From a virus: DNA of 53,649 nt. Positions 1 to 50,564 of the stretch are shown here, in pieces (the stretch's first letter is position 1; the number at the start of each line of letters is the position of its first letter). The DNA is taken from positions 1-53,649 of the IMG/VR virus record IMGVR_UViG_3300038678_000209. One strand, written 5' to 3'. The position numbers and the translations under genes were made by a program. Below the pieces are notes generated by a model. It saw only the letters and a program-made list of their open reading frames with translations. It was not told the DNA's origin and ran no database searches.

Positions 1-127
1 TCCCGCCCGATAGCCGACGTGCGCAGGTTCCCACGACCTTTTCTCACCGCCAGTGGCTCGATGTTGCGGTAACGCATGAATCAACCGGTCCCCACCAATG
101 GCCGCTGTTATGGCAGTATCGGCCACA
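1..127. repeat. Left copy of 127-bp terminal repeat
   Basis: These 127 bases are identical to 53523-53649. A repeat of exactly 127 bases matches the largest k-mer used by common assemblers, so it is most simply the overlap left when a circular or circularly permuted molecule was assembled. The true circular length is then 53,522 bp. The sequence holds the start of the 53141-53599 gene, one 20-bp dispersed repeat and the end of the 108-3302 gene, so both genes are continuous across the junction. A genuine short direct terminal repeat cannot be excluded from sequence alone. Confidence 0.95.
82..101 (-). repeat. Dispersed 20-bp repeat, copy 1
   Basis: On the minus strand this reads CCATTGGTGGGGACCGGTTG, a perfect consensus copy. 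It lies between the end of the leftward gene 108-3302 and the start codon of the next leftward gene, five bases upstream of that ATG (counted on the circle). The GGGGA inside it is the only purine run near that start and may double as a ribosome binding site. The same copy appears at 53604-53623 because of the terminal overlap. Confidence 0.9.
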
Positions 128-3100
128 GGTCCGTATTGTCGTAGGTATCCACACCTGGTCCCTGTGTCCCGAATCGGTGAACTTTTTTGGCAAGCATCAT
201 TTTGAGCGCGCTCATTTTGCGCTGGAGTTGACGCTCGATTTCCGCACGCCGTTCGCTTTTGGCTTCGTTCGCGAGCACATCTAACGACGCGTAACAGGCG
301 ACTACGTGCTTGATGAGCCGCGAATACTGCGGCAGTACCTCGTATACCGTGGTGTCATCAGGGGCGGTGGTCCAATCGGGCCGCAGAGTCACCACCCGCG
401 TTGCGGTGTTGTACGCGGATGCGATGCGCTCTTGGCCGGCGCCTGTACCACTAAGCGTGCGGACCGTGTAGCCCGCGTAGGCGTGCGGGCGAATGTCGAG
501 TGTGCCGTCTGTTGGACTGGCCGGAAACGTAATCGAGTCGGCCGCTCCAGCAGCGGCAGTGGCGGTATGAATAGATACGTCACCTGCCGCGACATACAAC
601 ACCTCCAGTGTCTCAGCGGTGCGATTGAGGTGTTGAAACCGCAGTATGTTACCCTCGACCATAAATCCGTCGCCGCGAAATGTGTACGGGTTAGTGGGCC
701 AAACTTCGTGGGTTGGAATACCAGTATCCAAATCAATTTTTGCAATCCGCCAGATTTCAGCCATGTTGCATGGCAGCAAGTATTCTTGTGTGCCCTGTAC
801 AACTGGGACCTCGTACCGCACGAGGATTGGATGGTCCGTCTCGACGTTGATGGACGCGAGCACTTGATCGAACGCGCTGTGGATGTACTCGATCAAGTCG
901 GCGTCTGGGTACTTGGGTCCGGTGTCGGGTTCGTCAGTTGCCTTGCGGATGAGCGACACGCATTCGGACAAGAAGCCAACGCCGGATAGCGTACCGCTGG
1001 CAGAAACGACCAAGGGCGCGACCAAATCGGTGATTGCATCGCGGATAGCTTTAAGGGAATCGGTGCCGGTAGCGAACCCGGACCCCTGAATTGCTGTGGC
1101 TGCTTCGCCTAGAACCTCCAGCGAGTCAGTAGACGGCGTGTAAGTGCCAACGCCACTGGGAACCGTGGCTGCTTTGGACATCATGGCCCGAAGGTGACTA
1201 ATCAGGTTGTCGGGCGCAGAAGCTCCAAAGCCGGTAGACAACTTCAAAATCTCAACGAGGATAGCGGCACCCGGATCGGCCCAAACCTCAAACGTGTCTA
1301 CGCCTACTTCTGGGGTGAAGTCTAGAGCAGCATCCAAAGTGAAGGTGTTGGTGGACGCGGTGTAAACGCTTACGAGCCGGATATTAGGCTTGTTCCCAGA
1401 ATTCACGTCGCGGGCGAGGACCATCGCTCCGTTGTAGATGTCATCGGTGTCGTCTGCGCCCGCACCGGGAAGGTCGGCCGCCAACGCAATGAGTAGGCTG
1501 GCCGTTGAACCGGCTTGGATTGTAGTGTCGACAAGACGGGTAACCGGAACTGAATCGCTGCTCCATGCAGCGTCCCCACGATCCCGGATAGCTTCAAGGG
1601 AGTCAGTGGCAACCGCAAAGGTGCTGGTGTCGGAAGTCTTAGACATGATGTTGGAGAGTACTGTGCCATCGGCCACCTCAGGAGTCATATCGGGGTTGCT
1701 TGCGACCGGGGTCTTCATCAAGTGGTCAAGGTTGATGTCCAGCAGGGCCGTATCACATGCTGCATTGATCTGGTCTGGAGCAACCCGAGCAACCTCCGTA
1801 AGGGTAAGATTCGTAATCCCCGACGTTGAGATAATCCCTCGAATCGTCACCGTCCCACTGGTGCAGGTACCCTCGATGAGATTGGCCATTCCTTCGAAGT
1901 TCAGGGTATCGGTACCCGCATCCCCCATATTCTCAAGTTGGAGCCCACCGAAGTAATCGCGTACATGGACGTTTGAGCTGCCGAGGGCTCCCCCAAAGTC
2001 CAAAATCGGAGCCGTGGACCCAGTGACACCTGAGTGGCAAGAGTCCAACCAAATATCGCCTGCCTCAATGAGGGTCTGAGTTCCGGAAATCCGACAACTT
2101 TCCAGGTGGGTGTGGGCGATAAGGGAACAGGTCCCCATATCACAGTTTCGGAATGACTGGTTATCACCCGCGCCGGCCATCACTCCAGAAACATCGGCAC
2201 CCTCTACGTGGATACCAACCATTGTCTGACCCCCAAGGGCCAAGGTCCAGTTGTTACCAAAGAAAGAATAGGTAGATGCTGTAGCGGCAAGGGTAATGGA
2301 GGAACCGTTTATGACGTGGAAGTCCCGCATCCCCAAACTGGCTGCCAGAGTGAAGGCAGCCGTGATCGTGCTTACGGGATTGTCAGCGGTGCCGTCGACG
2401 AAGTCCTCCGTATTGGTATTGGACGCATTGGTATCTATGTAGATACGTCCATTTGAGTACCCGACTGAACGAGGCACAATAACGTAGTCGACTAGAATTT
2501 GATCGGTCTTGAGAGTAGTAGTGCCTACAAGGGCTACACTACCTGTCAGAAAGCGAATACGAACCAATCCCAGATTTGCCCCGGTCCCGGTATGAGCCGT
2601 TATTAGTTGATACTCAGCGTCCGCCAACGAAGTGTCGGAATCGAGGGTGCCAATTTGATCCCAGCCCGGAGTGCCCCAGTTGTATGCCCAAACCGTGAGG
2701 TTTTTTCCTGCCCCGGTCCCCTTGTCAAGTTGTATAGTGGCAGTAATCCCGCTGGCGAGTCCGTCCCCCCCGACAGAAAACTCGTAGTACACCTCAATCT
2801 TTTCGGTCCCATCCGTAACGGCTTCAATGTCATGTGTAACGCCGTCTTTGGCGAAGGTGCTATCCTCAGTATTGACTTCGTTCTCACCAGACGTTATGGT
2901 AAACCCGTTGGGGGATGCCTTGGGTGGAGTACTAACGGCAGACGAAGCCGGTACGAAGGGGTCTCCCAGTGTAATCTCCTCCACGGCGGGATGAAATCCA
3001 GTTTGAGTAACAACCAAAGTTACACCGGTGGCCCCCAAAGCAAAAGCTGCATCCGGCCAATCAACTCGGTATAAGCCGGGAGAAGACGTAGAATCCAGCT

Positions 3101-8922: not shown

Positions 8923-9828
8923 TTATCCCCCCGGCAGTTGACTGCTCTCTCTTTCTATGAGCGCCTGATTGTACTTCATACGCTCCATCAAGTACTCATC
9001 GTGTGACTGCTCGTCCGCAAACGCAGGCACCCGCTCCGGCGCCTTCAACTCCTGATTCATTTGAAAGTCCGCCTGTGACCCCGGTCCCATTCCTGGTTGC
9101 GCGGGCCGCTCAAAAAACGGCGCTAGCCTCGCCTTCTCCGCGGCCACCGCTTGCTTAGCCGCTTGACCCCAGTTGTAGTCAAACCGATCACCGCGCTCGT
9201 CCACAAACCGTTGCAGCCGGTCCCGAATGATCGACTTCACCGAATCCTGCGCTTTCGGACTCGCCTGCTTCATATTATAGGACAACTCTTCGTCCAAGTC
9301 AAGCGCCTGCCCAATTGCCTGCTCAACCATGTGGCTATGGACAGCCCCAATCGCCTTTTGAGACCCCACATCCAACCGCGCGTACCCAATCGGCTCGTCA
9401 CCATCATCGGTACGCGCCCGCTTACCAGTCGACGTAGACGGCTCGTCAAGGTCCACGTCACCATCATCGTCGTCGTCTTTCAACTCCCCCTCAATTGCAG
9501 CGATAAGCGTGTCCAGCTCCCCCGCCGGCAAGTTCTTCACCTGCTCAAACAGCGCCGACGCGTCCACAGTAGCCTCCGCTGGTGCCGCCGCCACACTTGT
9601 CGATTGGACATTGGTGGGGACCGGTTGTGGCTCGCGATCCCCACCTGCAGCATCTGGCTGGGTGGACTTGTCGGGCGGTGCGGTGGCCTCCGTAGGAACG
9701 TCCACGTCAGCCGCGCGCCCAGTTGTCTGCGTGACCGCCGCGGGGGTCAAGTCGGGCGCGTTGCCCGGCGCTTGGTCCACGTTCGTGGTTCCGTCTGTTT
9801 GCGTTTGCGTATTGACTTCCGTGGGCAT
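8923..9828 (-). CDS. Scaffolding protein
   Basis: A 301-residue protein of scaffold character. The N-terminal ~90 residues are low-complexity (P, T, A, Q, D), a DDDDDGDVDLDE acidic stretch follows around residue 120, and the rest is largely helical and charged with no cysteine. The C-terminal region (RMKYNQALIERESSQLPGG) is the expected capsid-binding tail. It lies between portal and capsid genes, the standard scaffold position. A promoter (9274-9302) and one copy of the 20-bp repeat (9608-9627) lie inside the gene. The repeat encodes QPVPT in the flexible N-terminal part. Confidence 0.75.
   Translation of the reverse strand: MPTEVNTQTQTDGTTNVDQAPGNAPDLTPAAVTQTTGRAADVDVPTEATAPPDKSTQPDAAGGDREPQPVPTNVQSTSVAAAPAEATVDASALFEQVKNLPAGELDTLIAAIEGELKDDDDDGDVDLDEPSTSTGKRARTDDGDEPIGYARLDVGSQKAIGAVHSHMVEQAIGQALDLDEELSYNMKQASPKAQDSVKSIIRDRLQRFVDERGDRFDYNWGQAAKQAVAAEKARLAPFFERPAQPGMGPGSQADFQMNQELKAPERVPAFADEQSHDEYLMERMKYNQALIERESSQLPGG
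9274..9302 (-). promoter_or_regulatory. Internal sigma70-type promoter
   Basis: Read leftward, TTGACT at 9302-9297, a 17-base spacer and TATAAT at 9279-9274 give a near-consensus promoter inside the scaffold gene. It would start transcripts about 9267 and serve the end of the scaffold gene, the HNH gene and the major capsid gene. The match is as good as that of promoters found between genes, so it is unlikely to be chance alone. Confidence 0.65.
9608..9627 (+). repeat. Dispersed 20-bp repeat, copy 2
   Basis: Matches CCATTGGTGGGGACCGGTTG on the plus strand with one mismatch at the first base. It lies inside the leftward scaffold gene and is translated as QPVPTN in a flexible region. It pairs with copy 3 (12897-12916) in the same orientation, the two bracketing the band-7 and portal genes. 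Confidence 0.85.
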
Positions 9829-9831: not shown

Positions 9832-10521
9832 CTAATTCCCTCCCTCAATTTTGATCTTTTCCACATTCACAATCGGCTGGACATTTTGTGACAGCGCAAG
9901 AAGCGCTGTGTCCACCGGCACATTCAACTCGGTTGCAGCGAATTTTGCCGCGCTAATTATACCTGCACATGACGCCTTCATAGCACATGACATTCGGCTA
10001 TGCGGGTCCTCGTGTTCAATCCTTTGGAACCTCGCGCAACGGATGCTCACGCCGCACCCTTCCAAGTCATCTACTACCGTACCGCGCAGCTCCTCTTCCA
10101 TAGCTCGGCTTTGCTCAGCGATAGTCTGGAATTCGTTGTCAGATAGTATCCGCCGCACGCACGCTTCCACAACTGCCAGTATGTGGACGGTAGGTTCATC
10201 GGATGACGCAAGGAACACTCCCAAGTCTACAATGTCGTAGATGATAATGGCGTCTGCGCTTAGCGCTACGCCGTCCCACGTCAGTCCAGTAACCTGTTCA
10301 GTTGACGCGACATTCCTAAGCGCGTGTTCCTTGACAATTGTTTGGCAAGATGTACAAATCCTCCACCCAGTTTCTAGTCCCGGTCCAGGATTCCCGAGTG
10401 TATACCTAACGGCGACTTCTCCTGGTCTTACGACGGCCCACTTCAACGGGAATAGCCAAACCACTGGGGTAACCAGCGCGTTCATCACCAATTCTAGGCA
10501 CCTTGCGAGGAACTCAAGCAT
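9832..10521 (-). CDS. SPFH/band-7 domain membrane-associated protein
   Basis: A 229-residue protein. A hydrophobic N-terminus (residues 1-30, LELVMNALVTPVVWLFPL) is followed by a stomatin/prohibitin-like (SPFH, band 7) domain: VVRPGEVAVRYTLGNPGPGLETGW near residues 30-50, then VASTEQVTGLTWDGVALSADAIIIYDIVD and the helical VEACVRRILSDNEFQTIAEQSRAMEEELRGTVVDDLEGCGV. Cellular SPFH proteins form oligomeric rings on membranes and regulate proteases or microdomains. Here the gene is coupled to the portal gene by a TGATG overlap and precedes the scaffold. Its role is unknown; possibilities are a membrane platform for assembly, protection against host proteases, or a virion component for entry. Confidence 0.8.
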   Translation of the reverse strand: MLEFLARCLELVMNALVTPVVWLFPLKWAVVRPGEVAVRYTLGNPGPGLETGWRICTSCQTIVKEHALRNVASTEQVTGLTWDGVALSADAIIIYDIVDLGVFLASSDEPTVHILAVVEACVRRILSDNEFQTIAEQSRAMEEELRGTVVDDLEGCGVSIRCARFQRIEHEDPHSRMSCAMKASCAGIISAAKFAATELNVPVDTALLALSQNVQPIVNVEKIKIEGGN

Positions 10522-12695
10522 CAAACGAACCCTTCCACGGGTACTTGCACACCGCCTGGCGGCTGGGTCGGAGGCGCTATGGCGCTGGCAGCAAGTGACT
10601 GGCCTTGTTGCTGTTGCTCAGCCGCAAGCCGCTGCTCAATCTCCGGCAACGCTTCCGCAGCCGCATCCTCTGGCAGCGGCAACCCCGCGGGATAGTCGCC
10701 CTTCATCCGTTCAAGGGCTTCTTTCCAAAGGACGAATTCCTGTTGCACTTCTTCGGTTGCCAGGCCGAACTCGATCTTGGACATGAACCGCTTCAACGCT
10801 CGCAGGTGTATGCTCGGGTCCTGCACGTGCTCGTCAAACTCAACCGGCCCCGGTTCCTTACCGTCGTTGAACAGCAAGATAATTTGCCAGATAGCCTTGC
10901 GCCATGTTTCGTACAAGTCTTTCGGTCCGCCCGGCACGTCCAGGTTTTCCTCGAACACTGCAAGCCAGTAGTTAATGTAGGACTCTTCCGGCGTCGCGCC
11001 AAGCAGCCCCGCCGCGTGATGCTCTGCCAATTCGCGCTTGCGAACGTCGGGGTCAGCGGGCACGCGGTCTTTCACATCCGTCTTGACTTCCCACGGTTGT
11101 GGTATCGGATTCTGCGCTAGTTCAAGCGATCCGGTTTCCGGGTTGAACACAACACCGGCCAGGTTCTCGTCGATGGTTGCTAGCTTAATCGTCTCGCCGC
11201 CCTGCAAGTTTTCGCGCGCCGACTGTAGAATGCGAGAGTAGATCGCAGCCATGCTGTCCGCCAAGTTCGCAGACGGCAGTCCCAATCCGATATTGCCCGT
11301 GTTGAACAGAAACCCGTGTCCTGCGGCGCCAATGTCCCGCCCGGCGGCTTGCCCCTCGTAGAACGGCCCCTGCCCAGCAAGGCTGTCGGATACGTCTTTC
11401 AAAAACACGCCAAAGTTTACGGGCAACAGCCCGATGTTCTTTGGTTGTATACTGATCGGCTGTGCGTTCGACGCTAGCGGATCAATTGTGTACTTATCCA
11501 TGCGCGGGCGGGGGCCGGGCTGGTTGTGCTTCTTCACATCGATGTTCATGCCGCTACTGACATACGTAGTGCCGAACATGTCCATTTCGCGGATGTTCCG
11601 CGCGACAGACGCGATGACCTTCTCGAACTGGTCATTGGCCGGAATCAGTGGTGCCACAAACCCACGTGAGAAGGCTGCTCCAGTATCCGTGTATCGCACT
11701 GCCTGTAACGGGCACACGATTCTGCGGCCTACAGCTTCGTAGTCGTCTTGGTAAATGATCTTGCGGCCGATCTTCAAGATGTACCGCGCCGTATAAGTCG
11801 CGTCATCCATGTACGGGTAGACTTCTTCCATCGGCACGTAGTAGCGGCCTGCCACATCAATGTCACGGTGCTCGTCCGCCTTGCCACTGCCAAGCGGCAC
11901 TCCCACAAATGCGCGCCCGCCGCCAATCTTTGGATCAGCCGGCGTCAGTACGTTGCCGTCTTGCAAGTACCGACCGTGTGTACCTCCCGTTGTTTCAGTA
12001 AGTAGCGAGTGGCCCGGCGGTTGGTTTCCCCACCCCACACGCACTCCAAGCAGATCAGATTCAACGTCGTACAGCGTATCCAAGTTGATGTCCCACCGGG
12101 TCTGTACGTAACTGCGGACCCACTCGTAGGGCATCCACCGCTTCCGCGCAATGCCCTGTATCGACTCGCAGCCCTCCGCAAACGCTGGCAAGAATCGAAG
12201 TTGCCTCGGCGGCACAACTTCGATGTGGTCTGGGTGTTGGGGGTCCGGCATTTCGTGGTGCGCAATGCCAACGATCCCGTACTTTACGAACGGCACTATG
12301 ATCGCGGTCTTAAGCCGATCAAGGTTAAGACCCGCCACACGTGCGTTCAATACCGCATTCGCGATCGCAGCGTTGCGCATGTCACCAAGCGATTCACCGC
12401 GCCGTCCTACTTTCGGCGATATGTCTGCGCGTAGCCACCGCCCCACTTCTACGAGGTAGCGGCGGACGATGTCTTCATAACGAAAGAGCACGTCCCCGCG
12501 CAAATGCTCAAAGCCGACCGCTACACGGCCAGCATACCGGTCGAGTGTCGTGAATTTTCTAGCGCCGCGGAGGTAGCCGTCGATGACTCTCCAGCCGGAC
12601 AAGTTGAGTCCCATTTCAGACTCGGCGGCAGTGAGTTCCATATCTAGGGATTCGGCCAGATGATCTTCGTCAGACGGTAGGTGATACCTTGCCAT
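10521..12695 (-). CDS. Portal protein
   Basis: A 724-residue protein with the size, order and composition of podovirus portals. The N-terminal half is mixed helix and strand with a long DNA-binding-style clip (residues about 150-330). A central NDQFEKVIASVARNIREMDMFG helix follows. The C-terminal part ends in an acidic/Q-rich barrel-like tail (EALPEIEQRLAAEQQQQGQS). The ATG at 12695 overlaps the upstream stop (TGATG). It forms the 12-mer ring at the packaging vertex, binding the terminase during filling and the adaptor afterwards. Confidence 0.85.
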   Translation of the reverse strand: MARYHLPSDEDHLAESLDMELTAAESEMGLNLSGWRVIDGYLRGARKFTTLDRYAGRVAVGFEHLRGDVLFRYEDIVRRYLVEVGRWLRADISPKVGRRGESLGDMRNAAIANAVLNARVAGLNLDRLKTAIIVPFVKYGIVGIAHHEMPDPQHPDHIEVVPPRQLRFLPAFAEGCESIQGIARKRWMPYEWVRSYVQTRWDINLDTLYDVESDLLGVRVGWGNQPPGHSLLTETTGGTHGRYLQDGNVLTPADPKIGGGRAFVGVPLGSGKADEHRDIDVAGRYYVPMEEVYPYMDDATYTARYILKIGRKIIYQDDYEAVGRRIVCPLQAVRYTDTGAAFSRGFVAPLIPANDQFEKVIASVARNIREMDMFGTTYVSSGMNIDVKKHNQPGPRPRMDKYTIDPLASNAQPISIQPKNIGLLPVNFGVFLKDVSDSLAGQGPFYEGQAAGRDIGAAGHGFLFNTGNIGLGLPSANLADSMAAIYSRILQSARENLQGGETIKLATIDENLAGVVFNPETGSLELAQNPIPQPWEVKTDVKDRVPADPDVRKRELAEHHAAGLLGATPEESYINYWLAVFEENLDVPGGPKDLYETWRKAIWQIILLFNDGKEPGPVEFDEHVQDPSIHLRALKRFMSKIEFGLATEEVQQEFVLWKEALERMKGDYPAGLPLPEDAAAEALPEIEQRLAAEQQQQGQSLAASAIAPPTQPPGGVQVPVEGFV

Positions 12696-13054
12696 CAAAT
12701 GTTCTCGTAAGAAGACTCGCCAGGCTCAGTCCAAGTCGTATCTGGTTGCTCCTCGGACGCACGCAACTCCCGCTGCCGCGCATACGTCCCAAACGCCTGG
12801 GCCAAATCGGAATTGCCCATTTGTACGAGCAAGAGTTCTTGAAGCCGATCAACGACAGGTAGCCAGTCCTGTACGGCGCTGCCAGCATGAGGTTGGCCAT
12901 TGGTGGGGACCGGTTGATTTACACGCACTTGCAACTCAGACACCTCGCGGTGCAGGCGTCCAACATCCGCGTGTAAGGATTGAAGAACCTGCGTGAGCTG
13001 GTCTACTGCCACGCGCTTCTGCTTGTTGGGTTTGTCACGATTCCAGAATGCCAT
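12695..13054 (-). CDS. Coiled-coil protein upstream of portal
   Basis: A 119-residue protein with a basic N-terminus (FWNRDKPNKQKRVAV), then a heptad-rich coiled coil (LTQVLQSLHADVGRLHREVSELQVRV) and an acidic tail. It starts at an ATG with a good GGGGGAGG ribosome binding site and follows a promoter at 13099-13127, making it the first gene of the portal operon. The 20-bp repeat inside it encodes NQPVPTNGQ immediately after the coiled coil. The function is unknown; a small head-assembly or packaging partner is possible. Confidence 0.7.
   Translation of the reverse strand: MAFWNRDKPNKQKRVAVDQLTQVLQSLHADVGRLHREVSELQVRVNQPVPTNGQPHAGSAVQDWLPVVDRLQELLLVQMGNSDLAQAFGTYARQRELRASEEQPDTTWTEPGESSYENI
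12897..12916 (+). repeat. Dispersed 20-bp repeat, copy 3
   Basis: A perfect copy on the plus strand, inside the leftward coiled-coil gene, where it encodes QPVPTNG. It shares flanking bases with copy 1 (GG before and ATT after), extending the identity to about 25 bases. Confidence 0.9.
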
Positions 13055-13151: not shown

Positions 13152-15062
13152 TCAGGCATAACCGATTATATCCCAGTCCACGCCGGTCGTATCGTCGCGC
13201 TGGGCCTGCTCCTCCTGCGCGCGGTAGTGGGCTTCCGCGACTTCGTCGGTCAGGCGCCCGGTTGCGATCGCGTGCTCAAAGTTGTCGAAGCCAAGATCGT
13301 CGTGGAGCTTGCCGTCTTTGAGCTGCTGGACCGCGTCAAGCGGGTCGGACGCGACTGAGATCGCAATGGGTGCCGCGCCCTTAGCGATGCCCTGGGTCAT
13401 GGCTACCGTGTCCAGAATGTCGTCGTGCTCCAGCAGGCCCATGTCGCTCGTGAACAGCTTGGTTTGATCCCACAGCGCCTTGTACGCAACTTCGTCCATG
13501 CGGTCTACAGGGTACTTGATGCGGAACTGCTCAAAGCGCCATGCGATACCTTTGATTTTCTCTGCTTTGGAAAACGTAGTGGGGAACTTGATGGGGATAA
13601 TTGCGGGGACCATTGAAGCGGCGCCGTCGGACACGCGCGCTTGTAGCTGCGGGAGCATGTCTTGGTAGAACCGCTCGTAGGTTTCCAGTTGTAGACCATA
13701 CGCCTCGATGCCAATGATATGAACTTGCCACTTAATCGCCATGTCAGTAAGGATTTTGACGAGTGTAGAGCGCTCTACTTTGCCCATCCAAGCGTCCAGG
13801 GAGAACAGCGTGTTGGGGTGGGCCTCAGTAGATTCCAAGCCAAATGCCTGGCACGCGGAGAAATCGGACATGTCGCTGATCGTGGGTGCGTAGTCGGCGG
13901 TGAGTATACGGTACATGCCCTGAACTGCGGGGCCAAAGGGGCGCACGAGCTTGCGCGGCACAGGGACAATGCGCAAGATTTCGGGGTCGTCCGCGTCTCG
14001 CACTTGGTCTAAGCGTGCGACTTGGTGAGTGACCAGCTTGGTTGCGGCTGACTGCAACGGGGACGTTGTATAGACTTGGTCGCGATCCTCCAGGTGGTAG
14101 GTCGTGAGTTCTGGGTGAATCTTGAGAAGCGCCTCTTCGTCTGTGGCCGGCGCGTTGAGACACTGCGCAGAAAATGCGGCCAGGCCAAGCTGCTTCTTTT
14201 CGTTCTCGATCCACTCTTCGTTCATAAACACGTCCGTAGACATATCGTGAACGGTCATCAGCGTGCGGTGGAAGAAGTCCGTAATCTTTGAGTCCTTGGA
14301 CTTGTACAGATTGTAGATGTACATCGCGCGCGAGTAGAGCGTGCCAACAATGCGCATGGGGATGGTTTTGCCCGGCGAACGGGCCATAGGGAGAAGGCCG
14401 TTGAAGAAGAAATCGTGGAAGCCGTGGCGCACGTCACCGGGATTGAGCACCTGCTCTTTGGACTTTTCCACGTCATCCACAACGATCAAGCCGGAGGGGC
14501 GTGTTCCTATGCTGGCGCCCATGAAGGGCTTGGCTTCGATCTTGCAGCGGCTCGTAGTCTCCAAGACGGACCCGCGGTTCCAAGTGCCGCTACCGCGCTT
14601 GGGTTTTTGTTTGCCGAAGTCGTCAATGATCCGAGAGTTGCTTTCCAATTGCGTGGCTAGACGGCCCAAGCGGGACGTGCAAAACTCGCGGGTGGCAAAG
14701 AACGCGGTGCATTCCCAGAACCGGCGCGTGACGAGGTTCCGCAGAATGTCTTCAAGCAGTTTGGTAGTTTTGCAGCCGCCACGCGGTGCGATGTGGATTA
14801 AACGTTTGTGCGTGTACCAGTCGCGTACCCACTCGGCGTGGGCCGGTGGAGACTCCACAAACGTGTCGGAGTACCAACCAGATTCCCAAGGGCGTAAATA
14901 CGTGTCGCAGAAGAATCGATCCGCAGCTACTTCAAGATCGGGTGGGCCATTGAGTGACGCGGCATTGACACGCGCCAGGCGTTTTCCGTCAAACGTTAGG
15001 TCTTCGTAGTCAGGAGGAAGCGGCCAGCGCTCGTTGCCTTCCTTGGGAAAAACAACAGGCAT
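13152..15062 (-). CDS. terL: Terminase large subunit
   Basis: A 636-residue packaging ATPase-nuclease. Residues 90-100 contain a Walker A variant (IAPRGGCKTT) followed by a helix. Around residue 195 GLIVVDDVEKS supplies Walker B with the catalytic acidic residue. The C-terminal RNase H-like nuclease has ILTADYAPTISDMSDFSA (first aspartate), HIIGIEAYG (glutamate) and LEHDDILDTVAM (last aspartate). All are expected in an active enzyme. It docks on the portal and drives DNA into the prohead, cutting concatemers. The start overlaps the stop of the preceding 63-residue gene (TAATG). Confidence 0.95.
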   Translation of the reverse strand: MPVVFPKEGNERWPLPPDYEDLTFDGKRLARVNAASLNGPPDLEVAADRFFCDTYLRPWESGWYSDTFVESPPAHAEWVRDWYTHKRLIHIAPRGGCKTTKLLEDILRNLVTRRFWECTAFFATREFCTSRLGRLATQLESNSRIIDDFGKQKPKRGSGTWNRGSVLETTSRCKIEAKPFMGASIGTRPSGLIVVDDVEKSKEQVLNPGDVRHGFHDFFFNGLLPMARSPGKTIPMRIVGTLYSRAMYIYNLYKSKDSKITDFFHRTLMTVHDMSTDVFMNEEWIENEKKQLGLAAFSAQCLNAPATDEEALLKIHPELTTYHLEDRDQVYTTSPLQSAATKLVTHQVARLDQVRDADDPEILRIVPVPRKLVRPFGPAVQGMYRILTADYAPTISDMSDFSACQAFGLESTEAHPNTLFSLDAWMGKVERSTLVKILTDMAIKWQVHIIGIEAYGLQLETYERFYQDMLPQLQARVSDGAASMVPAIIPIKFPTTFSKAEKIKGIAWRFEQFRIKYPVDRMDEVAYKALWDQTKLFTSDMGLLEHDDILDTVAMTQGIAKGAAPIAISVASDPLDAVQQLKDGKLHDDLGFDNFEHAIATGRLTDEVAEAHYRAQEEQAQRDDTTGVDWDIIGYA

Positions 15063-15255: not shown

Positions 15256-16410
15256 TTACCTCCCTGCCGCGGCGAGCTGGTAGACTGTTAGAAAGCCGGC
15301 GACCATGCCGCAGACGCGCGCGATCTGCTCGTTGCCAATGCAGTTACCGCTGCGCGAGCCACGGAGGAACTTGGACATCTGGTGAACAAACTTGGGGTGC
15401 GCGACCATCGAGTTGAACACCTCGTTGAACGCTTCCCGGCGCTCAGGAGGCCACTCGTTGTACTGGGCCGCGCGGGATAGCTGGCACCAATACTGGCGAA
15501 AGACCTTTTGCGGGTTGCGCTTCAAGATCATTCGCTGCAACTCTTGCAGGCCCTTGTCCAAATCAGGATCGTCTTCGACTTGTGTAGCCACGCATGGAGG
15601 AGGCTCGTCATAAGACGTACCCAGCGTGGGCTCATCGTCAACGTCAGGATCAAGTTCGTCGAGGTCGTCCTGAAGCTCCTCGTCAAGCTCGGCAAGGGCT
15701 TCAGTGGCGTCTTGGGAACGGTCGTCGTTGAAGTTGGGATCCAGAGGTAGGCCCGCGAGTCGACAGTCTTCTTCGCTTGGCGTAAATCGAGTTGTTGGGG
15801 GGGCTTCAGCGCGTTCGTCGCGTTCGGCGAGGGCTCGGACGATCATGTCCACGCCGCGCTCCAAGCGGGACATGCGCTCTTCTAGCATGGCGTTAGTTGA
15901 AATCGGAATCGGTGGAGTCGGGGCCGCAGTCGTTGAGGGAGCCGGACAGCGTGGTCCAACCGGTGGACCCCTCGGGACGGCGGGCTTTGGTGTGTTTCTT
16001 GAGCCCTTTGGACGACCGCGCTTCCGTGGGAGCGGATGCAACGGGTCCAGCTTCGGCGGCTCGGCGTTGCTCAACTGCTGCACGTTCTTCGCGGCCGACG
16101 AGGGATTGGTCCCCAACGGGGGACCCGTCCGGATGTATGGTTGTACTGGAGGCTCGGCGCGGTTCGTCTGCGGCTGAGGTGTGTCGGTGCTCACGTCCGT
16201 CTGGGCGTCGATTTCCTTCTGCCTCGCGCTCCGAGCGCGGAACTCCTCTTTCGACAGTTGAAGGTGGCAGTTGTCCGCTTGGCCGATCTTGACCCGGATT
16301 GGCGTGTCCGAACCGACAGGGGTGGCCAAGGTTTCGGCAGTGCCAGGAAAGTGGCCTCCCGGTCCCGCCAACTGGTTCTCCAAGTCTGGTGGAGTTTGCG
16401 ACTGCGTCAT
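15256..16410 (-). CDS. AT-hook protein, candidate small terminase
   Basis: A 384-residue protein with an excellent GGGAGG upstream of the ATG. The N-terminal ~130 residues are proline- and threonine-rich. RKRGRPKGSRN near residue 130 is a canonical AT-hook for minor-groove DNA binding. A helix follows (AMLEERMSRLERGVDMIVRALAERDER), then a strongly acidic stretch (ELDEELQDDLDELDPDVDDE), and a C-terminal helical domain. It lies just ahead of the terminase genes. DNA binding plus this position make a small-terminase or DNA-recognition role plausible, but the fold is not that of known small terminases. An overlapping frame (15893-16501) is open across its first half. Confidence 0.65.
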   Translation of the reverse strand: MTQSQTPPDLENQLAGPGGHFPGTAETLATPVGSDTPIRVKIGQADNCHLQLSKEEFRARSARQKEIDAQTDVSTDTPQPQTNRAEPPVQPYIRTGPPLGTNPSSAAKNVQQLSNAEPPKLDPLHPLPRKRGRPKGSRNTPKPAVPRGPPVGPRCPAPSTTAAPTPPIPISTNAMLEERMSRLERGVDMIVRALAERDERAEAPPTTRFTPSEEDCRLAGLPLDPNFNDDRSQDATEALAELDEELQDDLDELDPDVDDEPTLGTSYDEPPPCVATQVEDDPDLDKGLQELQRMILKRNPQKVFRQYWCQLSRAAQYNEWPPERREAFNEVFNSMVAHPKFVHQMSKFLRGSRSGNCIGNEQIARVCGMVAGFLTVYQLAAAGR

Positions 16411-20186: not shown

Positions 20187-20220
20187 GTTAGTTCCTCCTG
20201 GTTGCTGGATAGTAATACCG

Positions 20221-26459: not shown

Positions 26460-26486
26460 CGGGGGTCCAGGATTGCGTGCTGCACT

Positions 26487-26506: not shown

Positions 26507-26543
26507 CGCAGTCCTGCGTTCCTGGAGCCTGCCCGTCCGGTCT

Positions 26544-33675: not shown

Positions 33676-34226
33676 TACCGTCTTGTGGTCACGGAACACT
33701 CGTCGCGGACGGCACATGTCCAGAGTGCAACGCGGAATTCGCGCGAATCCAACAGTGCGATTTGGATTCGATGGTTACGGGCTCCAGCGACACCAAGCCG
33801 ACAAACCCCAAAGATCGCGCAGCCACGTCGCGACTGGACTTGAGCCTGTTCCCGGCGACGGCCCGCGCCTACGGGGCGCTTGCCATGACAGAGGGGCATT
33901 TGAAGTATGGCGGCTACAACTACCGAGAAGCAGGCGTACTGGCGTCGATCTATTACGCCGCTGCGGGCCGCCACTTGGACAAGTGGTTCAATGGTCAAAC
34001 GTGCGATCCCAAAACGGGTATTCCCCACCTCGCCAACGCTCTTGCCTGCATTGCGGTCCTCATCGATGCAGTGGAGTGCGCCAAATTGAATGATGATCGG
34101 CCCCCGCGCTGCAATATGGACAACATACTCCAATGGGCCGAACAGCGCGTAATCGGGTTACAAGAGCTGTTTCCTAGCGGCCCCGCGCGCTACACTCACG
34201 CGGCCAACTCAGGAGACCCAACGTGA
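33672..34226 (+). CDS. DUF5664-like protein (dATP/dGTP diphosphohydrolase N-terminal type)
   Basis: A 184-residue protein. After a CX6H..CPEC zinc-like start, residues 40-135 match a family found at the N-terminus of phage dATP/dGTP diphosphohydrolases: TNPKDRAATSRLDLSLFP, GHLKYGGYNYREAGV, AAAGRHLDKWFNGQTCD and GIPHLANALACIAVLIDA. The histidines and acidic residues may bind metal or nucleotide. The MazG-type C-terminal domain that does the hydrolysis in such enzymes is missing, so activity is uncertain. It fits with the nucleotide-metabolism genes further right. Confidence 0.8.
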   Translation: MIPSCGHGTLVADGTCPECNAEFARIQQCDLDSMVTGSSDTKPTNPKDRAATSRLDLSLFPATARAYGALAMTEGHLKYGGYNYREAGVLASIYYAAAGRHLDKWFNGQTCDPKTGIPHLANALACIAVLIDAVECAKLNDDRPPRCNMDNILQWAEQRVIGLQELFPSGPARYTHAANSGDPT

Positions 34227-35284: not shown

Positions 35285-35798
35285 TAAGCCTATACCAACT
35301 TTGCCGGGATACCGTGCTACAAGTGACGGCACCGTGTGGTCTAGTCGATGTTGCGGCGTTGGACCTGGGAATTGGCGTGCAGCCTTGTGCCCTGAAGAGT
35401 GGAAACAAATCTGCGGCAGCATCAACAAGGGATACCTACGCGCTGAGTTTCAATTGAACGGTCAGCCAACGCGCCGTCATCTGCACCAAGTGATCTGCGA
35501 AGCATTCCACGGACTGCGACCTGGTCTGAATCCTTTTTGGCAGGCAGCGCATAAAAACGGCGACCATTTCGATAACCGCCCCGTAAATCTGTATTGGGCC
35601 ACTGCCAAAGAGAACATGGCAGATCAGTACCGTCATGGCACCCGTGTTTCCAAGTTGACTGAAGAACATGTGCGTGAAATCTTACAATCGACGGATGGAC
35701 CTACCAAATTGGCTGTGCGGTTTGGCGTATCCGTTCCTACCGTTTGCAACATCCGAGCAGGACGCAAATGGAAACGTTTGAAAGGAATCCAACAATGA
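35259..35798 (+). CDS. NUMOD/HNH homing endonuclease
   Basis: A 179-residue protein. The N-terminus (PIPTLPGYRATSDGTVWSS) is a NUMOD4-like segment. HLHQVICEAFHG, WQAAHKNGDHFDNRPVNLYW forms the HNH core (with AHKNGD and the N and H motifs). The C-terminus (LTEEHVREILQ, KLAVRFGVSVPTVCNIRAG) is a helix-turn-helix DNA-binding region. It has been inserted between the Cas4-like and RecA-like genes without disrupting them. The 26-base overlap and the ATGA at its end preserve translation coupling. Confidence 0.92.
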   Translation: MTSLQWATSKPIPTLPGYRATSDGTVWSSRCCGVGPGNWRAALCPEEWKQICGSINKGYLRAEFQLNGQPTRRHLHQVICEAFHGLRPGLNPFWQAAHKNGDHFDNRPVNLYWATAKENMADQYRHGTRVSKLTEEHVREILQSTDGPTKLAVRFGVSVPTVCNIRAGRKWKRLKGIQQ

Positions 35799-36757
35799 CG
35801 ACGACCCAAAGCGTTACGAACGTAATGACCAAGCGCGCGGTGAAGTTGCCCGCTGCGCTTACCGGCAAGATGAGGGTGTGCGCGCCGTTTGAGGCACCGG
35901 ACCTGGACTCGTTGTTCCTCGTGATCCAGGGGCGCCCTGGCTGCGGCAAGTCCTCATTGGTCGCATCCAACCCGCGCTGCCTCTTCTTCGATCTGGAGAA
36001 GAACGCAGGTACAGTAATCGACCCTGCCGCCGAGCGCGTCCAGGTGCGGCCCACATCGACTACCGCAGCCAAGGATATTCGCGCCGGTGTGGATGGCTTC
36101 TTGTCCGCTTACCGCACTGACACTGCGCTTCGCGGGGCCATTTCCACAATCGCGTTCGACTCATACGATCGCCTTGTGGAGATTTTCCTCCGAGACCTGT
36201 GCCGCGAACACAACCTGGAAGACGCCGGCGAGTACAAGACCGGCCACGGCAAAGGCTACTTCAAGGTCCGCGATGAGCTATTTGATATGTTCGAGCGCAT
36301 CCTGCAAGCCGGGTTGGGTGTCGTGCTTACGGCCCACTTGGGGCCACAAGACATTCGTATCCCCGGCAAGAGCGAACCAGAAACACACATCACGCTTTCA
36401 GTGTCTAAGACATTCCGCAACACACTCGTGCGCACCCGGCATATGATGTTTCGTATAGAGTGCCAGCCCGTTATGGTTACCAAGACGACTGCCGCTGGCG
36501 TCAAGATCAAGTTGCCGTCCAACGATCCGTCAGCATGTGAGTACGTGCTTATTACTAACACGTCCACCCATGCCAACGACTTCGACTCGCCCAAGTCGTC
36601 AGTTCCAATTGATTCCAAGTTAGTCATCCCAGCAGCGGGTTGCTGGCAGGCGCTTCGGGATGCCTACACGGGCGCCGTAGAAAAACGAAGAAACCAGAGC
36701 CGTGCCCTTGACACCACAGCTCCCAAAGGCAATAATCAAACAGGAGCGCGCGAGTAG
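35795..36757 (+). CDS. RecA-like ATPase (Sak4/AAA_24 type)
   Basis: A 320-residue protein. Walker A is GRPGCGKSS at residues 46-54, followed by LFFDLEKNAGTVIDP. ISTIAFDSYDRLVEIF supplies Walker B, and VVLTAHLGPQDIRIP a sensor motif. This matches phage RecA-like single-strand annealing or strand-exchange ATPases of the Sak4 type. Such proteins work with a single-strand binding protein, probably the next gene. The start is the ATG overlapping the HNH gene stop (ATGA). Confidence 0.87.
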   Translation: MTTTQSVTNVMTKRAVKLPAALTGKMRVCAPFEAPDLDSLFLVIQGRPGCGKSSLVASNPRCLFFDLEKNAGTVIDPAAERVQVRPTSTTAAKDIRAGVDGFLSAYRTDTALRGAISTIAFDSYDRLVEIFLRDLCREHNLEDAGEYKTGHGKGYFKVRDELFDMFERILQAGLGVVLTAHLGPQDIRIPGKSEPETHITLSVSKTFRNTLVRTRHMMFRIECQPVMVTKTTAAGVKIKLPSNDPSACEYVLITNTSTHANDFDSPKSSVPIDSKLVIPAAGCWQALRDAYTGAVEKRRNQSRALDTTAPKGNNQTGARE

Positions 36758-36799: not shown

Positions 36800-37297
36800 A
36801 TGTCGGAAGAGCAAGGATTCATGGACGTTTTGGCTGGGTTCATTCCCGTAGCCAGAGACACCGAAGTTGGGGACGGTGGTTACTTCATCCCCAAGGGCGA
36901 GAAGCATCTGTCTCTCAACACCGCCGAGTTCGAGCCGGGCACGAACGACTACGGCCCGTTCGTCAAGGCCACTCTCACATGGGGCATCTGCGACCCCGGT
37001 GAGGACCAGGACCGCGAGTTCTCGACGGTCTACTTCGTGAACACAATGAAGCCGGATAAAGGTACCGGCGTTGCTAAGCTGTCCTTTGGCGGTCAAGACC
37101 TGCTGCGCCTCGCCGCTGTATTTGCAGGTGAGCCGATTGCAGACAACAACCCTGTCAACGCCGCAGCGGTCATCCAGGGCTCCATTGGCGCCGTTATCAA
37201 AGCCAAGTGCTCCGCGCGCAAGAACCCAAAGACGGGCGACGAGTATCCACGCGTCCGCCCGCTCTCCCTGGAAGCTATCCCGGCAACCACTCAGTAA
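36800..37297 (+). CDS. Probable single-stranded DNA-binding protein
   Basis: A 165-residue protein with AAGAGGAG upstream. The sequence GGYFIPKGEKHLSLNTAEFEPG, VKATLTWGICDPGE and STVYFVNTMKPDKGTGVAKLSFGG resembles an OB-fold phage DNA-binding protein family that accompanies RecA-like genes. SIGAVIKAKCSARKNPKTGDEYPR gives a basic strand typical of a DNA contact. The identification is from pattern and neighbourhood. Confidence 0.6.
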   Translation: MSEEQGFMDVLAGFIPVARDTEVGDGGYFIPKGEKHLSLNTAEFEPGTNDYGPFVKATLTWGICDPGEDQDREFSTVYFVNTMKPDKGTGVAKLSFGGQDLLRLAAVFAGEPIADNNPVNAAAVIQGSIGAVIKAKCSARKNPKTGDEYPRVRPLSLEAIPATTQ

Positions 37298-37391
37298 GGC
37301 GGGAAGTACCGGGCGTGGCAGCTCGGAGAGACGAGCCGTTCGGCGCCAGCTAACGGTGGGGGCTGACAGGCGAGTTCAAGGCTCGCCCGCC
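37298..37391 (+). other. tRNA-like folded element
   Basis: Downstream of the preceding stop are stems laid out as in a tRNA: GGCGG (37298-37302) with CCGCC (37387-37391) as an acceptor-like closing stem, GCTC/GAGC (37321-37324 with 37333-37336), CCGTT/AACGG (37336-37340 with 37352-37356), and GCGAG-TTCAAGG-CTCGC (37370-37386), a classic T-arm with a TTCRANN loop. The anticodon-like loop is 11 bases, not 7, and the spacing is too long. It is probably a tRNA-like regulatory or decayed tRNA element rather than a working tRNA. Confidence 0.3.
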
Positions 37392-37443
37392 GAAGTGGAG
37401 ACTGAATGGGGCGACACCTGCCCGAATGACAAATACGCATGGG

Positions 37444-37463
37444 CCATTGGTGGGGACCGGTTG
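37444..37463 (+). repeat. Dispersed 20-bp repeat, copy 6
   Basis: A perfect copy on the plus strand in the 242-base gap between the ssDNA-binding gene and the next small gene, downstream of the tRNA-like element. It faces copy 7 (38405-38424) across three small genes. Confidence 0.9.
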
Positions 37464-37539
37464 GGGTCATGCGTTCCAGTCGTCCAAAGTGGCGTGACCG
37501 GGGAGAGAGTTCCCCCTTTCTACTAAAGGAAAACTACCA

Positions 37540-38404: not shown

Positions 38405-38424
38405 CAACCGGTCCCCACCAATGG
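38405..38424 (-). repeat. Dispersed 20-bp repeat, copy 7
   Basis: A perfect copy on the minus strand, four bases after the stop of the preceding gene and about 29 bases before the next ATG. Non-coding. Confidence 0.9.
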
Positions 38425-38452
38425 CAGAATTTGTATTTAACGGAGAAAACTA

Positions 38453-38674
38453 ATGAAGATTGTGGACACAGTTGAAGCTCCTAAAATGTGTACGGTGTGT
38501 GATATTGAGGACGGGGGAACGTTCGAGTGGGATGGAAGCTACTACATCCGTCCGGGGTACGGCGTGCGACGTACAGGAGACATCGGCGGGGTGGGTCTAG
38601 CGACTGGCGACTTTGTTTCTAATTCTGTTACGTTGATGGTGCGCCGTGTGACAATGGAAGCGCGCGTGTTGTGA
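38453..38674 (+). CDS. Small hypothetical protein
   Basis: A 73-residue protein with ACGGAG upstream of the ATG. It is beta-rich with CTVCDIEDG near the start and may be a small beta barrel. GTGA overlap with the next gene. Not recognised. Confidence 0.65.
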   Translation: MKIVDTVEAPKMCTVCDIEDGGTFEWDGSYYIRPGYGVRRTGDIGGVGLATGDFVSNSVTLMVRRVTMEARVL

Positions 38675-40519: not shown

Positions 40520-40862
40520 CACGCGACAAACTAGGGTATACGTTGCAGGTCCATACTCTGGTGGGGACACTGCTGTGAACGTGAGGACAGCGATAATCGC
40601 TGCAAACCAATTGCGAGACCGCAGATTTGCGCCGTTTGTTCCACATCTTACACACTTTTGGCACCTGGTTTGCCCGCGGGATTACGAAGACTGGCTAGAC
40701 CTGGACAATCAGTTCTTGCCGTGTTGCGATTGCGTGCTGCGGCTGCCTGGAGAGTCCAGCGGCGCGGACAAAGAAGTGGAACTGGCACGGTCTCTCGGTC
40801 TCCCGGTGTACAAATCGATTTGCGACCTACTGCACGAGGAAGAGGTGTCCCGTGAACAATAA
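40512..40862 (+). CDS. DUF4406/nucleoside 2-deoxyribosyltransferase-like protein
   Basis: A 116-residue protein. VYVAGPYSGGDTAVN at the start, PFVPHLTHFWH, EDWLDLDNQFLPCCDCVLRL and ESSGADKEVELARSLG are the hallmarks of the DUF4406 family, with the fold of nucleoside 2-deoxyribosyltransferases. The catalytic-type D and E are present. It may hydrolyse or exchange the base of a (deoxy)nucleoside, altering nucleotide pools. It precedes an HD phosphohydrolase, forming a nucleotide-metabolism pair. Confidence 0.85.
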   Translation: MNNTRQTRVYVAGPYSGGDTAVNVRTAIIAANQLRDRRFAPFVPHLTHFWHLVCPRDYEDWLDLDNQFLPCCDCVLRLPGESSGADKEVELARSLGLPVYKSICDLLHEEEVSREQ

Positions 40863-41448
40863 ATGGTGCAAAACAGTTGACGGCAAGGAAATCAACCTGT
40901 TTGATCCGGACCCATCACTATTTACGGTGGACCGCATCGCGAACGCGTTAGCGCGGATCAACCGGTTTGCGGGCGCCTGGGAACGCGCCGTCAGTGTAGC
41001 CCGCCATTCCATGCGCGTGGCCGAACGGTTGCGCTCCGATGGCTGTGACATCGAAACCCAGTTGCAGGGCCTCTTCCACGATGCCGCCGAAGCCTTCACC
41101 ACTGACATTCCTTCCCCGCTAAAGCGGCTCTTATCTATCAAAGTTCCATCGACGCGCGAGCAGGGGCGCTTGAGCTTTGGGGTATTCGAGGACGAAATGC
41201 TGCGCCAAATCTTCAATCGCTTAGAGATTGTGTGGCCCCTGCGGCTGGAAACAGAAAAGGCCGACGAGATGCTCACGGAACACGAAAAGCCTTGGGTTGC
41301 TGGCAAAGAGTGTGACTTGTACTGCTTCCTGTCGACGGACCCAGACGTTGTTGCGGCGGCGTTCAAGTACCGTGCGGAGAAGCTATTCTATGAACGCGCG
41401 CATACCAGCGACATACCAACGGAGGAGCTTCCAAGTGGCACGACATAA
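40852..41448 (+). CDS. HD-domain phosphohydrolase (nucleotidase-like)
   Basis: A 198-residue protein starting at a GTG. RIANALARINRFAGAWERAVS leads to RHSMRVAERL (H52), then LFHDAAEAF (H76, D77) and TTDIPSPLKRLL with a further aspartate. This is the pattern of YfbR/DatZ-type HD nucleotidases and dNTP hydrolases that act on deoxynucleotides. DatZ enzymes deplete dATP in phages that replace adenine with 2-aminoadenine. No PurZ synthetase is present here, so that full pathway is not supported; general nucleotide breakdown is more likely. Confidence 0.85.
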   Translation: MNNKWCKTVDGKEINLFDPDPSLFTVDRIANALARINRFAGAWERAVSVARHSMRVAERLRSDGCDIETQLQGLFHDAAEAFTTDIPSPLKRLLSIKVPSTREQGRLSFGVFEDEMLRQIFNRLEIVWPLRLETEKADEMLTEHEKPWVAGKECDLYCFLSTDPDVVAAAFKYRAEKLFYERAHTSDIPTEELPSGTT

Positions 41449-44804: not shown

Positions 44805-44807
44805 AAG

Positions 44808-46721: not shown

Positions 46722-46735
46722 CTTATTCTCCCTAC

Positions 46736-49096: not shown

Positions 49097-49097
49097 C

Positions 49098-50564
49098 TTA
49101 CTCAAACCCTCCCCCAAGAAGCATACTGCCAAAGCCTAGTATGGCACCCGCAGGACCGGGAATCATTTGCATAAACAACTGAGACATCGTAGCCGCCTTC
49201 GCCCACTCTTCCCCCGCAGCCAACGCGTCTAGCATGTTATTGTAGCCGCCCGCCTGGAGCTTCGTCGCAAAGTCGGTCCCCAAGATGTTCTGCCCAATCG
49301 CAAAGTGATTCGTCATAAAGTCGTAGGGCAACTGGCTTACGTAGTTTTCCGAATCCAACAGCGCCAAGCTCGTACCGTCCTTAGCATCGCGATAATTCGC
49401 CGTCAGGTTGTCATAGTTGAACCGAATCGAATCCGCGTTGTTCCGTGCATTGATCCGCAGCTCATCAAATCCAGCCGAAATATCCGCGGCCTTCGTGTAC
49501 GCACCCGCGACCGCTTGTATCTCCGCACCGCCCAATACCGCAAGCGACTGGTTCCTTGCAGTAGACGCGGCAGCAACAGACTGCATTGTACTTACCATCG
49601 CACCCGTTTGCAATGCTGTAAAGTCTTTGATGTTCGCGCCGATGGTAGTCGCGATCTGCATCGACCCGGTTACACGCAGTTGTGCAATCAGCGCCGACTT
49701 GCGGCCCGGCGGAATGTTCGGGTCTGCATTGATTTTCGCTTCTGCATTGCGCATGGCTTGCTGCTGCGCGCTCACCGCAGCCTGCGCCGCCGCATTCTTT
49801 CCCTCCAGCGCTATGCCAACCGCTTCGCGCCCCAACCCCTCGATACGGTCAATGTCAACGTCAGTTGTCTCTTTGTACTTGTCCGCAATCCCACTTAGCG
49901 CATCCTGCACCTGCCCCGGCAACTGGGACGCATCCTGCTTGGCTTGGTCGGCAATATCGTCTGCCGCCTGTACCGTCGCATCCAGCCGCTCCCGCCCCTC
50001 AGCCAGTTGCGTCTCCGTATCTGCCTCACGCCCTGAAATGGCAGTTTCAGCTTTTTGCAGCGACTCCTCCGCAGCCGCCGTCTCGGTTTCAGCCAGGCCC
50101 TCCAGCGACTTCAAAGACTTCGCTCCAAACTCTCCAATTGCGGGCGCCTCAATTTGCCCAGTCTCAGGGTCCACGCTTCCCGTGAACCCGCTCACGTCTT
50201 GCGCAGGATACGTATGCAACCGCCCACTTTCATCCCGGTACACCTCCTCTCCCCCGCCGCTGCTAACGAGTGTCAAACCCGCTCGATCTCGCCCGGTACC
50301 CCCAGGCTTCCCCTGGTCGGCGCCCGTATCCGACCCAGTAGCTCCCTCCCTTAGCTTCGCCCCAGCACGAGCCTTGCCAATGGTGGGGACCGGTTGTGTC
50401 CCCGCGATTGTGCTGGTACCCGTACCCGTACCCGCACCCGCACCCGACTGCTCGCCAGCCCGCGCCTTGCGCCGCTTGGCGGTCCTGCTCACAGCGCTCC
50501 CGAGGCGCCTCAGAGACGTGGTCCGCGTTTGAGTCTCGTTTGGTGATGTAGGTGCCGTTGCCAT
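49098..50564 (-). CDS. Virion protein with long coiled coil
   Basis: A 488-residue protein. The first ~125 residues are low-complexity (G, T, A, R, P). Residues 160-230 form a long coiled coil (LAETETAAAEESLQKAETA, TQLAEGRERLDATVQAADD). The rest is helical, ending in a hydrophobic glycine-rich tail (QLFMQMIPGPAGAILGFGS). The ATG at 50564 lies 18 bases from a TATAAT box. One copy of the 20-bp repeat encodes QPVPTIGKA. It is the first of the ejection-type operon. Confidence 0.6.
   Translation of the reverse strand: MATAPTSPNETQTRTTSLRRLGSAVSRTAKRRKARAGEQSGAGAGTGTGTSTIAGTQPVPTIGKARAGAKLREGATGSDTGADQGKPGGTGRDRAGLTLVSSGGGEEVYRDESGRLHTYPAQDVSGFTGSVDPETGQIEAPAIGEFGAKSLKSLEGLAETETAAAEESLQKAETAISGREADTETQLAEGRERLDATVQAADDIADQAKQDASQLPGQVQDALSGIADKYKETTDVDIDRIEGLGREAVGIALEGKNAAAQAAVSAQQQAMRNAEAKINADPNIPPGRKSALIAQLRVTGSMQIATTIGANIKDFTALQTGAMVSTMQSVAAASTARNQSLAVLGGAEIQAVAGAYTKAADISAGFDELRINARNNADSIRFNYDNLTANYRDAKDGTSLALLDSENYVSQLPYDFMTNHFAIGQNILGTDFATKLQAGGYNNMLDALAAGEEWAKAATMSQLFMQMIPGPAGAILGFGSMLLGGGFE
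50377..50396 (+). repeat. Dispersed 20-bp repeat, copy 8
   Basis: Matches the consensus on the plus strand except one base (A for T at position 4). It lies inside the leftward coiled-coil gene in the same frame as copies 2 and 3 (QPVPT). It faces copy 1 across the tail hub gene and the 152-residue gene. Confidence 0.85.

Follow-up and report, generated by a model that had tools for sequence, protein, structure and literature searches.

A dispersed 20-letter word in an uncultured phage genome resembles one dialect among the DNA words of its family

The window analysed here – a stretch of 53,649 nucleotides, positions 1 to 53,649 of the viral record IMGVR_UViG_3300038678_000209 (IMG/VR) – carries a 20-letter word, CCATTGGTGGGGACCGGTTG, in eight independent copies per circular phage genome of 53,522 bp. 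Comparison with related phages shows a word kept at fixed places, free of the direction of transcription, and bound to lineage and to phage phylogeny. The eight copies are no artefact and no ordinary set of operators; they look like one dialect within a system that spans the family. Relatives carry words of their own, different from that of the window, which the first-pass annotation could not have seen. The explanation we favour, while placing it somewhat below even probability, is that the phage marks its own genome throughout with these words, which a co-evolving phage-encoded factor would read on the DNA, probably in recombination or packaging.

All eight copies reported by the first-pass annotation were located: five are exact (starting at 82, 12897, 26487, 37444 and 38405) and three carry a single mismatch (9608, 24218 and 50377). 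The first 127 bases of the window are identical to its last 127, and the sequence closes as a circle of 53,522 bp; because of this closing overlap a ninth match (53604–53623, minus strand) is the site at 82–101 seen again and not an independent copy. Assembly artefact is true of that match alone, the other eight standing in distinct flanks and recurring in an independent contig. The surprise first expressed at an eight-fold word of this length was justified: 100 dinucleotide-preserving shuffles of the window gave no match to CCATTGGTGGGGACCGGTTG at up to three mismatches, and by k-mer outlier count it is the strongest repeated word in the window.

Around the circle the copies run 82−, 9608+, 12897+, 24218+, 26487−, 37444+, 38405− and 50377+, five on the plus strand and three on the minus. 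They are not in tandem and, as was first described, not limited to non-coding DNA. About three read in the direction of transcription (82, 24218 and 37444) and four against it (9608, 12897, 38405 and 50377). Three copies lie antisense within well-supported genes: 9608–9627 in gene 8923–9828, 12897–12916 in gene 12695–13054 (between the portal and terminase genes), and 50377–50396 in gene 49098–50579. The copy at 24218–24237 is sense, spanning codons 6–12 of a small gene with its ATG at 24202. The remaining four lie between genes: 82–101, between two minus-strand genes and, across the closing point, just upstream of the ATG of gene 53141–53599; 26487–26506, in non-coding DNA ahead of the polymerase gene; 37444–37463, in non-coding DNA with the inverted repeat ACGCATG/CATGCGT on both sides; and 38405–38424, between two plus-strand genes. 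The three antisense copies within genes are read in one frame as QPVPT(N/I), QPVPTN at 9608 and QPVPTI at 50377, and a protein motif was considered; it is ruled out by the non-coding and sense copies, whose existence means that selection acts on DNA.

Evidence that the word is maintained comes from G001 (IMGVR_UViG_3300043256_000267; 55,579 bp), the one other record found when viral contigs were scanned with a slightly loosened form of the word. Far from lacking it, G001 keeps all eight copies in the order and on the strands of the window, seven of them exact to the consensus and the eighth, the counterpart of copy 82, with two changes. The window's three mismatch copies (9608, 24218 and 50377) are exact in G001, and the one altered in G001 has its exact form in the window. 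The two genomes have mutated at different copies, a pattern that argues for maintenance and not for recent copying. Where the two genomes align, at 84.5% identity, six of seven exact 16-mer words are identical (0.009 differences per base), as against 11–13% of G+C-rich control 16-mers (~0.14 differences per base). In two other clades the words identical in place number 56 of 65 (32 expected) and 76 of 114 (25 expected), pairs being counted both ways and thus not independent.

The family was traced through the gene for the terminase large subunit (13152–15062, minus strand). Neither the terminase nor the portal protein of the window had a match in the annotated phage collection, a comparison that yielded no cultured family member, and the terminase had no relative in bacterial and archaeal genomes. 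A search with its family alignment found 47 loci in viral contigs, and our sample, besides the window, consists of 20 records, two of them short. Words were detected by setting 10-mer counts against an order-2 Markov expectation, and in most family records the top outlier proved to be a dispersed word unlike that of the window, mostly a G-run. Several belong to single records: CCGGGAGAGA in G002 (16 copies), TGTGGGTGAG in G004 (11 copies in 22 kb), CCGGGACAAG in G005 (10 copies in 19 kb), TGTGGGAGGG in G006 (28 copies), GACGGGGGAC in G009 (31 copies), GTGGTTCCAG in G010 (9 copies) and, near-palindromic and without a G-run, GCCTCTGCAG in G022 (12 copies). Others extend over clades: CGTGGGGGGA in G015, G012 and G013 (18, 15 and 12 copies), TGAGTGGGGG in G018 and G019, two records that are 99.9% identical (22 and 20 copies), and GCTGGTGGGG in G007, G021, G011, G016 and G017 (18, 17, 8, 7 and 7 copies). 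The word CGTGGGGGGA occurs once in 666 kb of control loci and eight times in one 15.9-kb family locus.

The distribution of these words follows the phage tree. On the terminase tree they need nine changes, the minimum for 10 words and without reversals, whereas 1,000 shuffles of the labels needed at least 13. Of 48 terminases the tree holds 39, without nine loci that were partial or unused; 31 tips were labelled by us, and eight are unlabelled, among them L042 and L047, with two copies and one copy, respectively, of CTGGTGGGG. Sister lineages, moreover, share halves of words. The next nearest relative of the window, G008 (61% terminase identity), is without a strong 10-mer outlier but holds a 26-letter variant, GGATTGGTGGGGACCTCCTCCGCGCG, twice, each time where a window copy stands (12897 and 37444) and in matching relative orientation; judged by eye, the first falls on the corresponding codons of the gene's homologue. 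The window and G008 have ATTGGTGGGGACC in common and differ on the right; G002 (ACCGGGAGAGAT) and G004 (TTTTGTGGGTGAGATT) have GGG-W-GAGAT in common and differ on the left. Such half-word sharing is the trace that would be expected of a slowly drifting, two-sided recognition. A search of 84,980 bacterial and archaeal genomes, contigs under 3 kb not being covered, gave no match to the 18-mer of the window. Nor was any report of word dialects of this kind in phages found in the open literature, subscription papers and preprints lying outside the scope of the search.

The same k-mer measure applied to known phages gave scores of 10 for lambda, 13 for N4, 15 for phiKMV, 24 for T5 and 63 for T7 (T5 and N4 scored on their first 50 kb only); the T7 score is that of its promoters. 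As unrelated controls we took ~36–40 kb of each of 20 viral contigs, picked by length among those with a neutral 14-mer. Scores of at least 20 were reached by 16 of 18 long family records and by two of the 20 controls (Mann-Whitney p 1.2e-5, a generous value because the family records are related to one another); the two family records below the cut-off are G001 (19.7) and G008 (10.5). In both of the controls that pass, the word copies fall mainly between genes (5 of 6 and 18 of 21). The second of these, contig G038 (L257, L258), has 21 copies of ACTGGCAACT/AGTTGCCAGT, 18 of them between genes, and appears operator- or promoter-like. Two distant family terminases gave weak matches to 26 and 32 phage records; the three of these that were examined are Zobellviridae, with top word scores of 10.7, 16.9 and 23.2 from words that are not G-runs.

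How the words are placed was asked of a pooled set of ten word lineages, one record each, with 183 copies and genes called by our own crude caller. Among copies within genes 56 are sense and 66 antisense (p 0.42), and there is therefore no transcription polarity. Although 122 of the 183 lie inside genes, the 61 not wholly within one far exceed the ~10% expected (p 2e-17). Relative to the terminase strand there is a lean of 111 on to 72 off (p 0.005), strong in G015 (20 to 5), G018 (18 to 6) and G021 (15 to 5), seen also in G019 (14 to 7), and lacking in G009 (13 to 17) and G002 (7 to 9). In the clade of G015 the lean persists in genes of the other strand (9 to 2, 9 to 1 and 7 to 2) and is therefore tied to the genome, not to the gene. 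Several of the words vary little: in G006 there are 23 exact copies of 15 letters, and its four one-letter variants are all changed at the first or last letter; the words of G009, G018, G005 and the window are similarly strict, and that of G004 has one inner variant. Even spacing was considered as a further regularity, the copies in the window resembling four pairs about a quarter-genome apart, and was set aside there as not significant (p 0.21); over the ten lineages combined the signal is weak (Fisher p 0.017).

Two copies stand in DNA with local structure. Copy 26487 lies at the tip, an apical hairpin, of a predicted structured RNA (26410–26541, minus strand; fold z −4.7) whose 5′ part is kept in G001 and which has no Rfam match; a promoter-like site, TTGACC-17-TATAAT, was read by eye ahead of it. 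The non-coding stretch 37296–37500 (plus strand), nearly identical in G001, has by eye a tRNA-like look (ARAGORN: no tRNA), followed by a long hairpin around copy 37444. Scans of the window for tRNAs and Rfam families found nothing. The window word can fold as AUUGGU-GGGG-ACCGGU, and an RNA element was entertained; it is disfavoured, since over 14 records the flanks belonging to each word gain little or nothing in pairing over swapped flanks, and many copies are antisense in genes. A three-sequence fold at 37444 shows little covariation, most stem pairs being gaps in G008, and the structured copies are a local oddity. In G009 all five close pairs of the word are inverted, with strong hairpins in the three that were folded (L072, ~1431–1497, 12849–12911 and 14572–14643), which are all intergenic, two of them where convergent genes end; no other lineage has a clear excess of close pairs. 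At 38405–38457 (plus strand), downstream of copy 38405, the reverse strand of the word supplies the ATG of an open reading frame of 10–11 codons that, by eye, overlaps the start of the next gene in both the window and G001: a leader peptide or chance.

We suggest that a phage-encoded protein or complex reads the words on DNA, acting genome-wide rather than on the nearest gene, and that its specificity drifts with lineage, such that the words would behave as dialects. That the reader would be carried by the phage is suggested by words that follow the phage tree together with a window 18-mer not found among the bacterial and archaeal genomes searched. The likeliest process would be recombination, or the packaging of replicated DNA, because a Sak4-like recombinase and a PD-(D/E)XK nuclease, often joined by an ERCC4-like nuclease, are conserved in the family, and because several lineages show a strand lean; a lean to one strand is what a travelling machine would require. 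The mode of action would resemble that of Chi or of the dialects of DNA uptake sequences (DUS), but the reader would be phage-coded, and most of the words are longer. Packaging and recombination were among several options listed in the first-pass annotation, and it is to these that gene content and weak polarity now point.

The gene content of the family is consistent with this proposal. In records with both halves, a terminase-portal-capsid-tail block occupies one strand and a block with the polymerase, PD-(D/E)XK nuclease and Sak4-like recombinase the other. Terminase, portal, capsid-like and tail proteins and two large proteins are found in 17 of 17 long records, Sak4 in 16, the polymerase and the PD-(D/E)XK nuclease in 15 (absent only from the 36–37 kb records G010 and G011) and the ERCC4-like nuclease in 12. 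In the window the candidate actors are the PD-(D/E)XK nuclease (34223–35284, plus strand) and the Sak4-like ATPase (35744–36757, plus strand), accompanied by the family-conserved ERCC4-like nuclease (32804–33502, plus strand; profile match to PDB 1j22, E 6.7e-6). A hint towards packaging may lie in a small protein just upstream of the terminase: between two word groups it diverges more than any other (26% identity, as against 56% for the terminase). As a candidate for the reader this protein was rejected: the polymerase is almost equally diverged between the same groups (27% identity) and the window's clade has no homologue. Structure models of these terminase-upstream proteins are poor (pLDDT 48.8 and 47.5). 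The window's own gene upstream of the terminase (15256–16410, minus strand) encodes a fast-evolving, largely disordered protein with an AT-hook-like KRGRPKGS, seen by eye; it is a possible small terminase.

Several observations weigh against self-marking words with a phage-encoded reader. The assignment to recombination or packaging is drawn from gene content and weak polarity. The window has neither a strand lean (3 to 5) nor significantly even spacing. More inner variants are tolerated in the words of G007, G021, G015, G012 and G002, and copies per genome range from 2 (G008) to ~30, from which it follows that the function requires no set number. Over windows of 12 kb, family and control contigs differ only modestly (scores of at least 16 in 11 of 42 family and 4 of 41 control windows, at least 20 in 6 family and 2 control; p 0.009). 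No word was detected in the relatives G003 (8.7 kb), L029, L030, L032 and L034, some of them short. Finally, two copies (26487 and 37444) sit in structured RNA, for which a purely DNA-based reading has no need.

The strongest rival, in our view an unlikely one that nevertheless deserves attention, is that the words are site-specific nick sites (single-chain interruptions), with a phage nickase that late in infection would cut a single strand at every word and would co-evolve with the word. This has the closest phage precedent: T5 (R/GCGCRGG), the phiKMV group (CGACxxxxxCCTA/CTCCGG) and tf (TACT/RTGMC, 14 sites) are reported to have strict, dispersed, lineage-specific nick words, with co-evolution of nickase and site proposed and their function given as unknown (PMC3517423). 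The lean to one strand in several lineages and the conserved nucleases of the family would suit such a scheme. The 14 sites of tf, however, are described in the same text as all on one strand (PMC3517423), whereas the words here fall on both – 5 and 3 in the window, 13 and 17 in G009, 20 and 5 in G015 – and no DNA ligase match was found among the window proteins scanned, a scan that covered only part of the open reading frames and left many proteins without any family.

That the words bind a phage regulator, as stoperators or operators do, silencing or tuning many transcription units, we consider improbable. An imperfect dyad, GGT-GGGG-ACC, is visible by eye in the window word, copies are over-represented outside genes, and copy 26487 lies just downstream of the promoter-like site. 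Against these stand the absence of transcription polarity and the two thirds of copies that lie in genes; the words of other lineages are not dyads, and several lineages have few inner variants. The first-pass annotation saw a resemblance to mycobacteriophage stoperators while finding no repressor gene; no repressor or integrase family appeared among the window proteins scanned, many of which fall in no family. Both stoperator and promoter readings fit poorly.

Still less probable are Chi sites of a host RecBCD or AddAB, through which phage DNA would be spared or put to use by host repair. The words are asymmetric and G-rich, their density is Chi-like, and that of one clade, GCTGGTGGGG, contains the Chi of E. 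coli. In G007, however, GCTGGTGG is enriched mainly where G comes next (24, as against 2, 2 and 0), and the pattern is alike in four relatives. Known Chi forms are shorter than these words, and the family has its own recombinase. The window 18-mer, not found among the bacterial and archaeal genomes searched, speaks likewise against a host word, with the reservation that these may not include the host and that the host might use a shorter one. In favour of the reading, Chi is reported to be over-represented in lambdoid phages without recombinases (PMC3784561).

Very improbable, we think, is a selfish or mutationally spread word without function for the phage, the "tiny mobile word" of the first-pass annotation, which has little support because copies hold their position between relatives. 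Lineages do differ greatly in copy number, and in a few places the word has been swapped as a block between clean flanks. Yet retention in place is far above background, and block replacements are few: 8 of 179 words have at least five changes relative to a relative, where ~3 are expected, and most of these are one site counted in several pairs. Least credible of all are promoters of a phage RNA polymerase in the manner of T7, whose promoters give an equally strong k-mer signal (63) but lie 17/17 on the coding strand and 14/17 outside genes, whereas here sense equals antisense, 122/183 copies are in genes, and no RNA polymerase family was found among the window proteins scanned.

Other genes of the window complete the picture of the phage. 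A single protein (26826–29564, plus strand) combines a uracil-DNA glycosylase domain with a family A DNA polymerase (Pfam). A strong dATP/dGTP diphosphohydrolase domain is encoded at 33639–34226 (plus strand) and an HD/YfbR-like 5′-deoxynucleotidase, below the Pfam cut-off, at 40852–41448 (plus strand); such pairs can go along with modified bases. A DNA methyltransferase is encoded at 19389–20282, and amid the structural genes there is a SPFH/Band 7 domain protein (9832–10524, minus strand; Pfam 1.4e-10).

The system bears on two questions: how a phage recognizes its own DNA among that of host and rivals, and how phage lineages are held apart. More doubtful than the explanation favoured above, and offered as a conjecture, is that this uncultured family of ~50-kb phages uses its words as a self-identity code, in which the co-evolving reader would tell own DNA from host or rival DNA during recombination or packaging and the dialects would act as barriers between lineages. 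If true, such a code would be the phage counterpart of DUS dialects. Words that change half at a time provide a natural series of reader-target pairs, in which co-variation could lead to the reader and binding could put it to the test; the findings may also throw light on the nick sites of T5, phiKMV and tf.

The words share features with several known systems. Mycobacteriophage stoperators are dispersed, asymmetric sites of group-specific sequence that need a repressor and whose orientation follows transcription; here orientation ignores it (56 sense, 66 antisense, p 0.42). KOPS and SRS, motifs that orient translocation, are G-rich, purine-rich and strand-polar; the polarity of the words is by comparison weak and dependent on lineage, and no FtsK-like motor was found among the proteins scanned. 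Like Chi the words are asymmetric and G-rich and ignore gene orientation, and one clade's word holds GCTGGTGG; Chi, however, is a host word read by the host's RecBCD, whereas these words switch from branch to branch of the phage tree. Nick words in T5, phiKMV and tf are reported to be similarly strict, dispersed and different between phage groups, with co-evolution of nuclease and word proposed (PMC3517423); unlike tf's, all on one strand, the words described here lie on both strands (111 on and 72 off the terminase strand over ten lineages), are mostly G-rich and reach 20 letters. The DUS dialects of the Neisseriaceae are reported to have a common core with lineage-specific flanks, to occur in and between genes on both strands, to be congruent with phylogeny, and to form inverted pairs (PMC3630211). 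Such pairs lie at terminators, and the inverted pairs of G009 recall them; congruence with phylogeny is found here too, in nine changes, the minimum, on tips labelled by us. DUS differ in being borne by transformable bacteria in thousands of copies, as opposed to 2 to ~30 in a virus with no known uptake. The closest parallel in behaviour is offered by the DUS dialects and, among phages, by the nick sites described for T5, phiKMV and tf.

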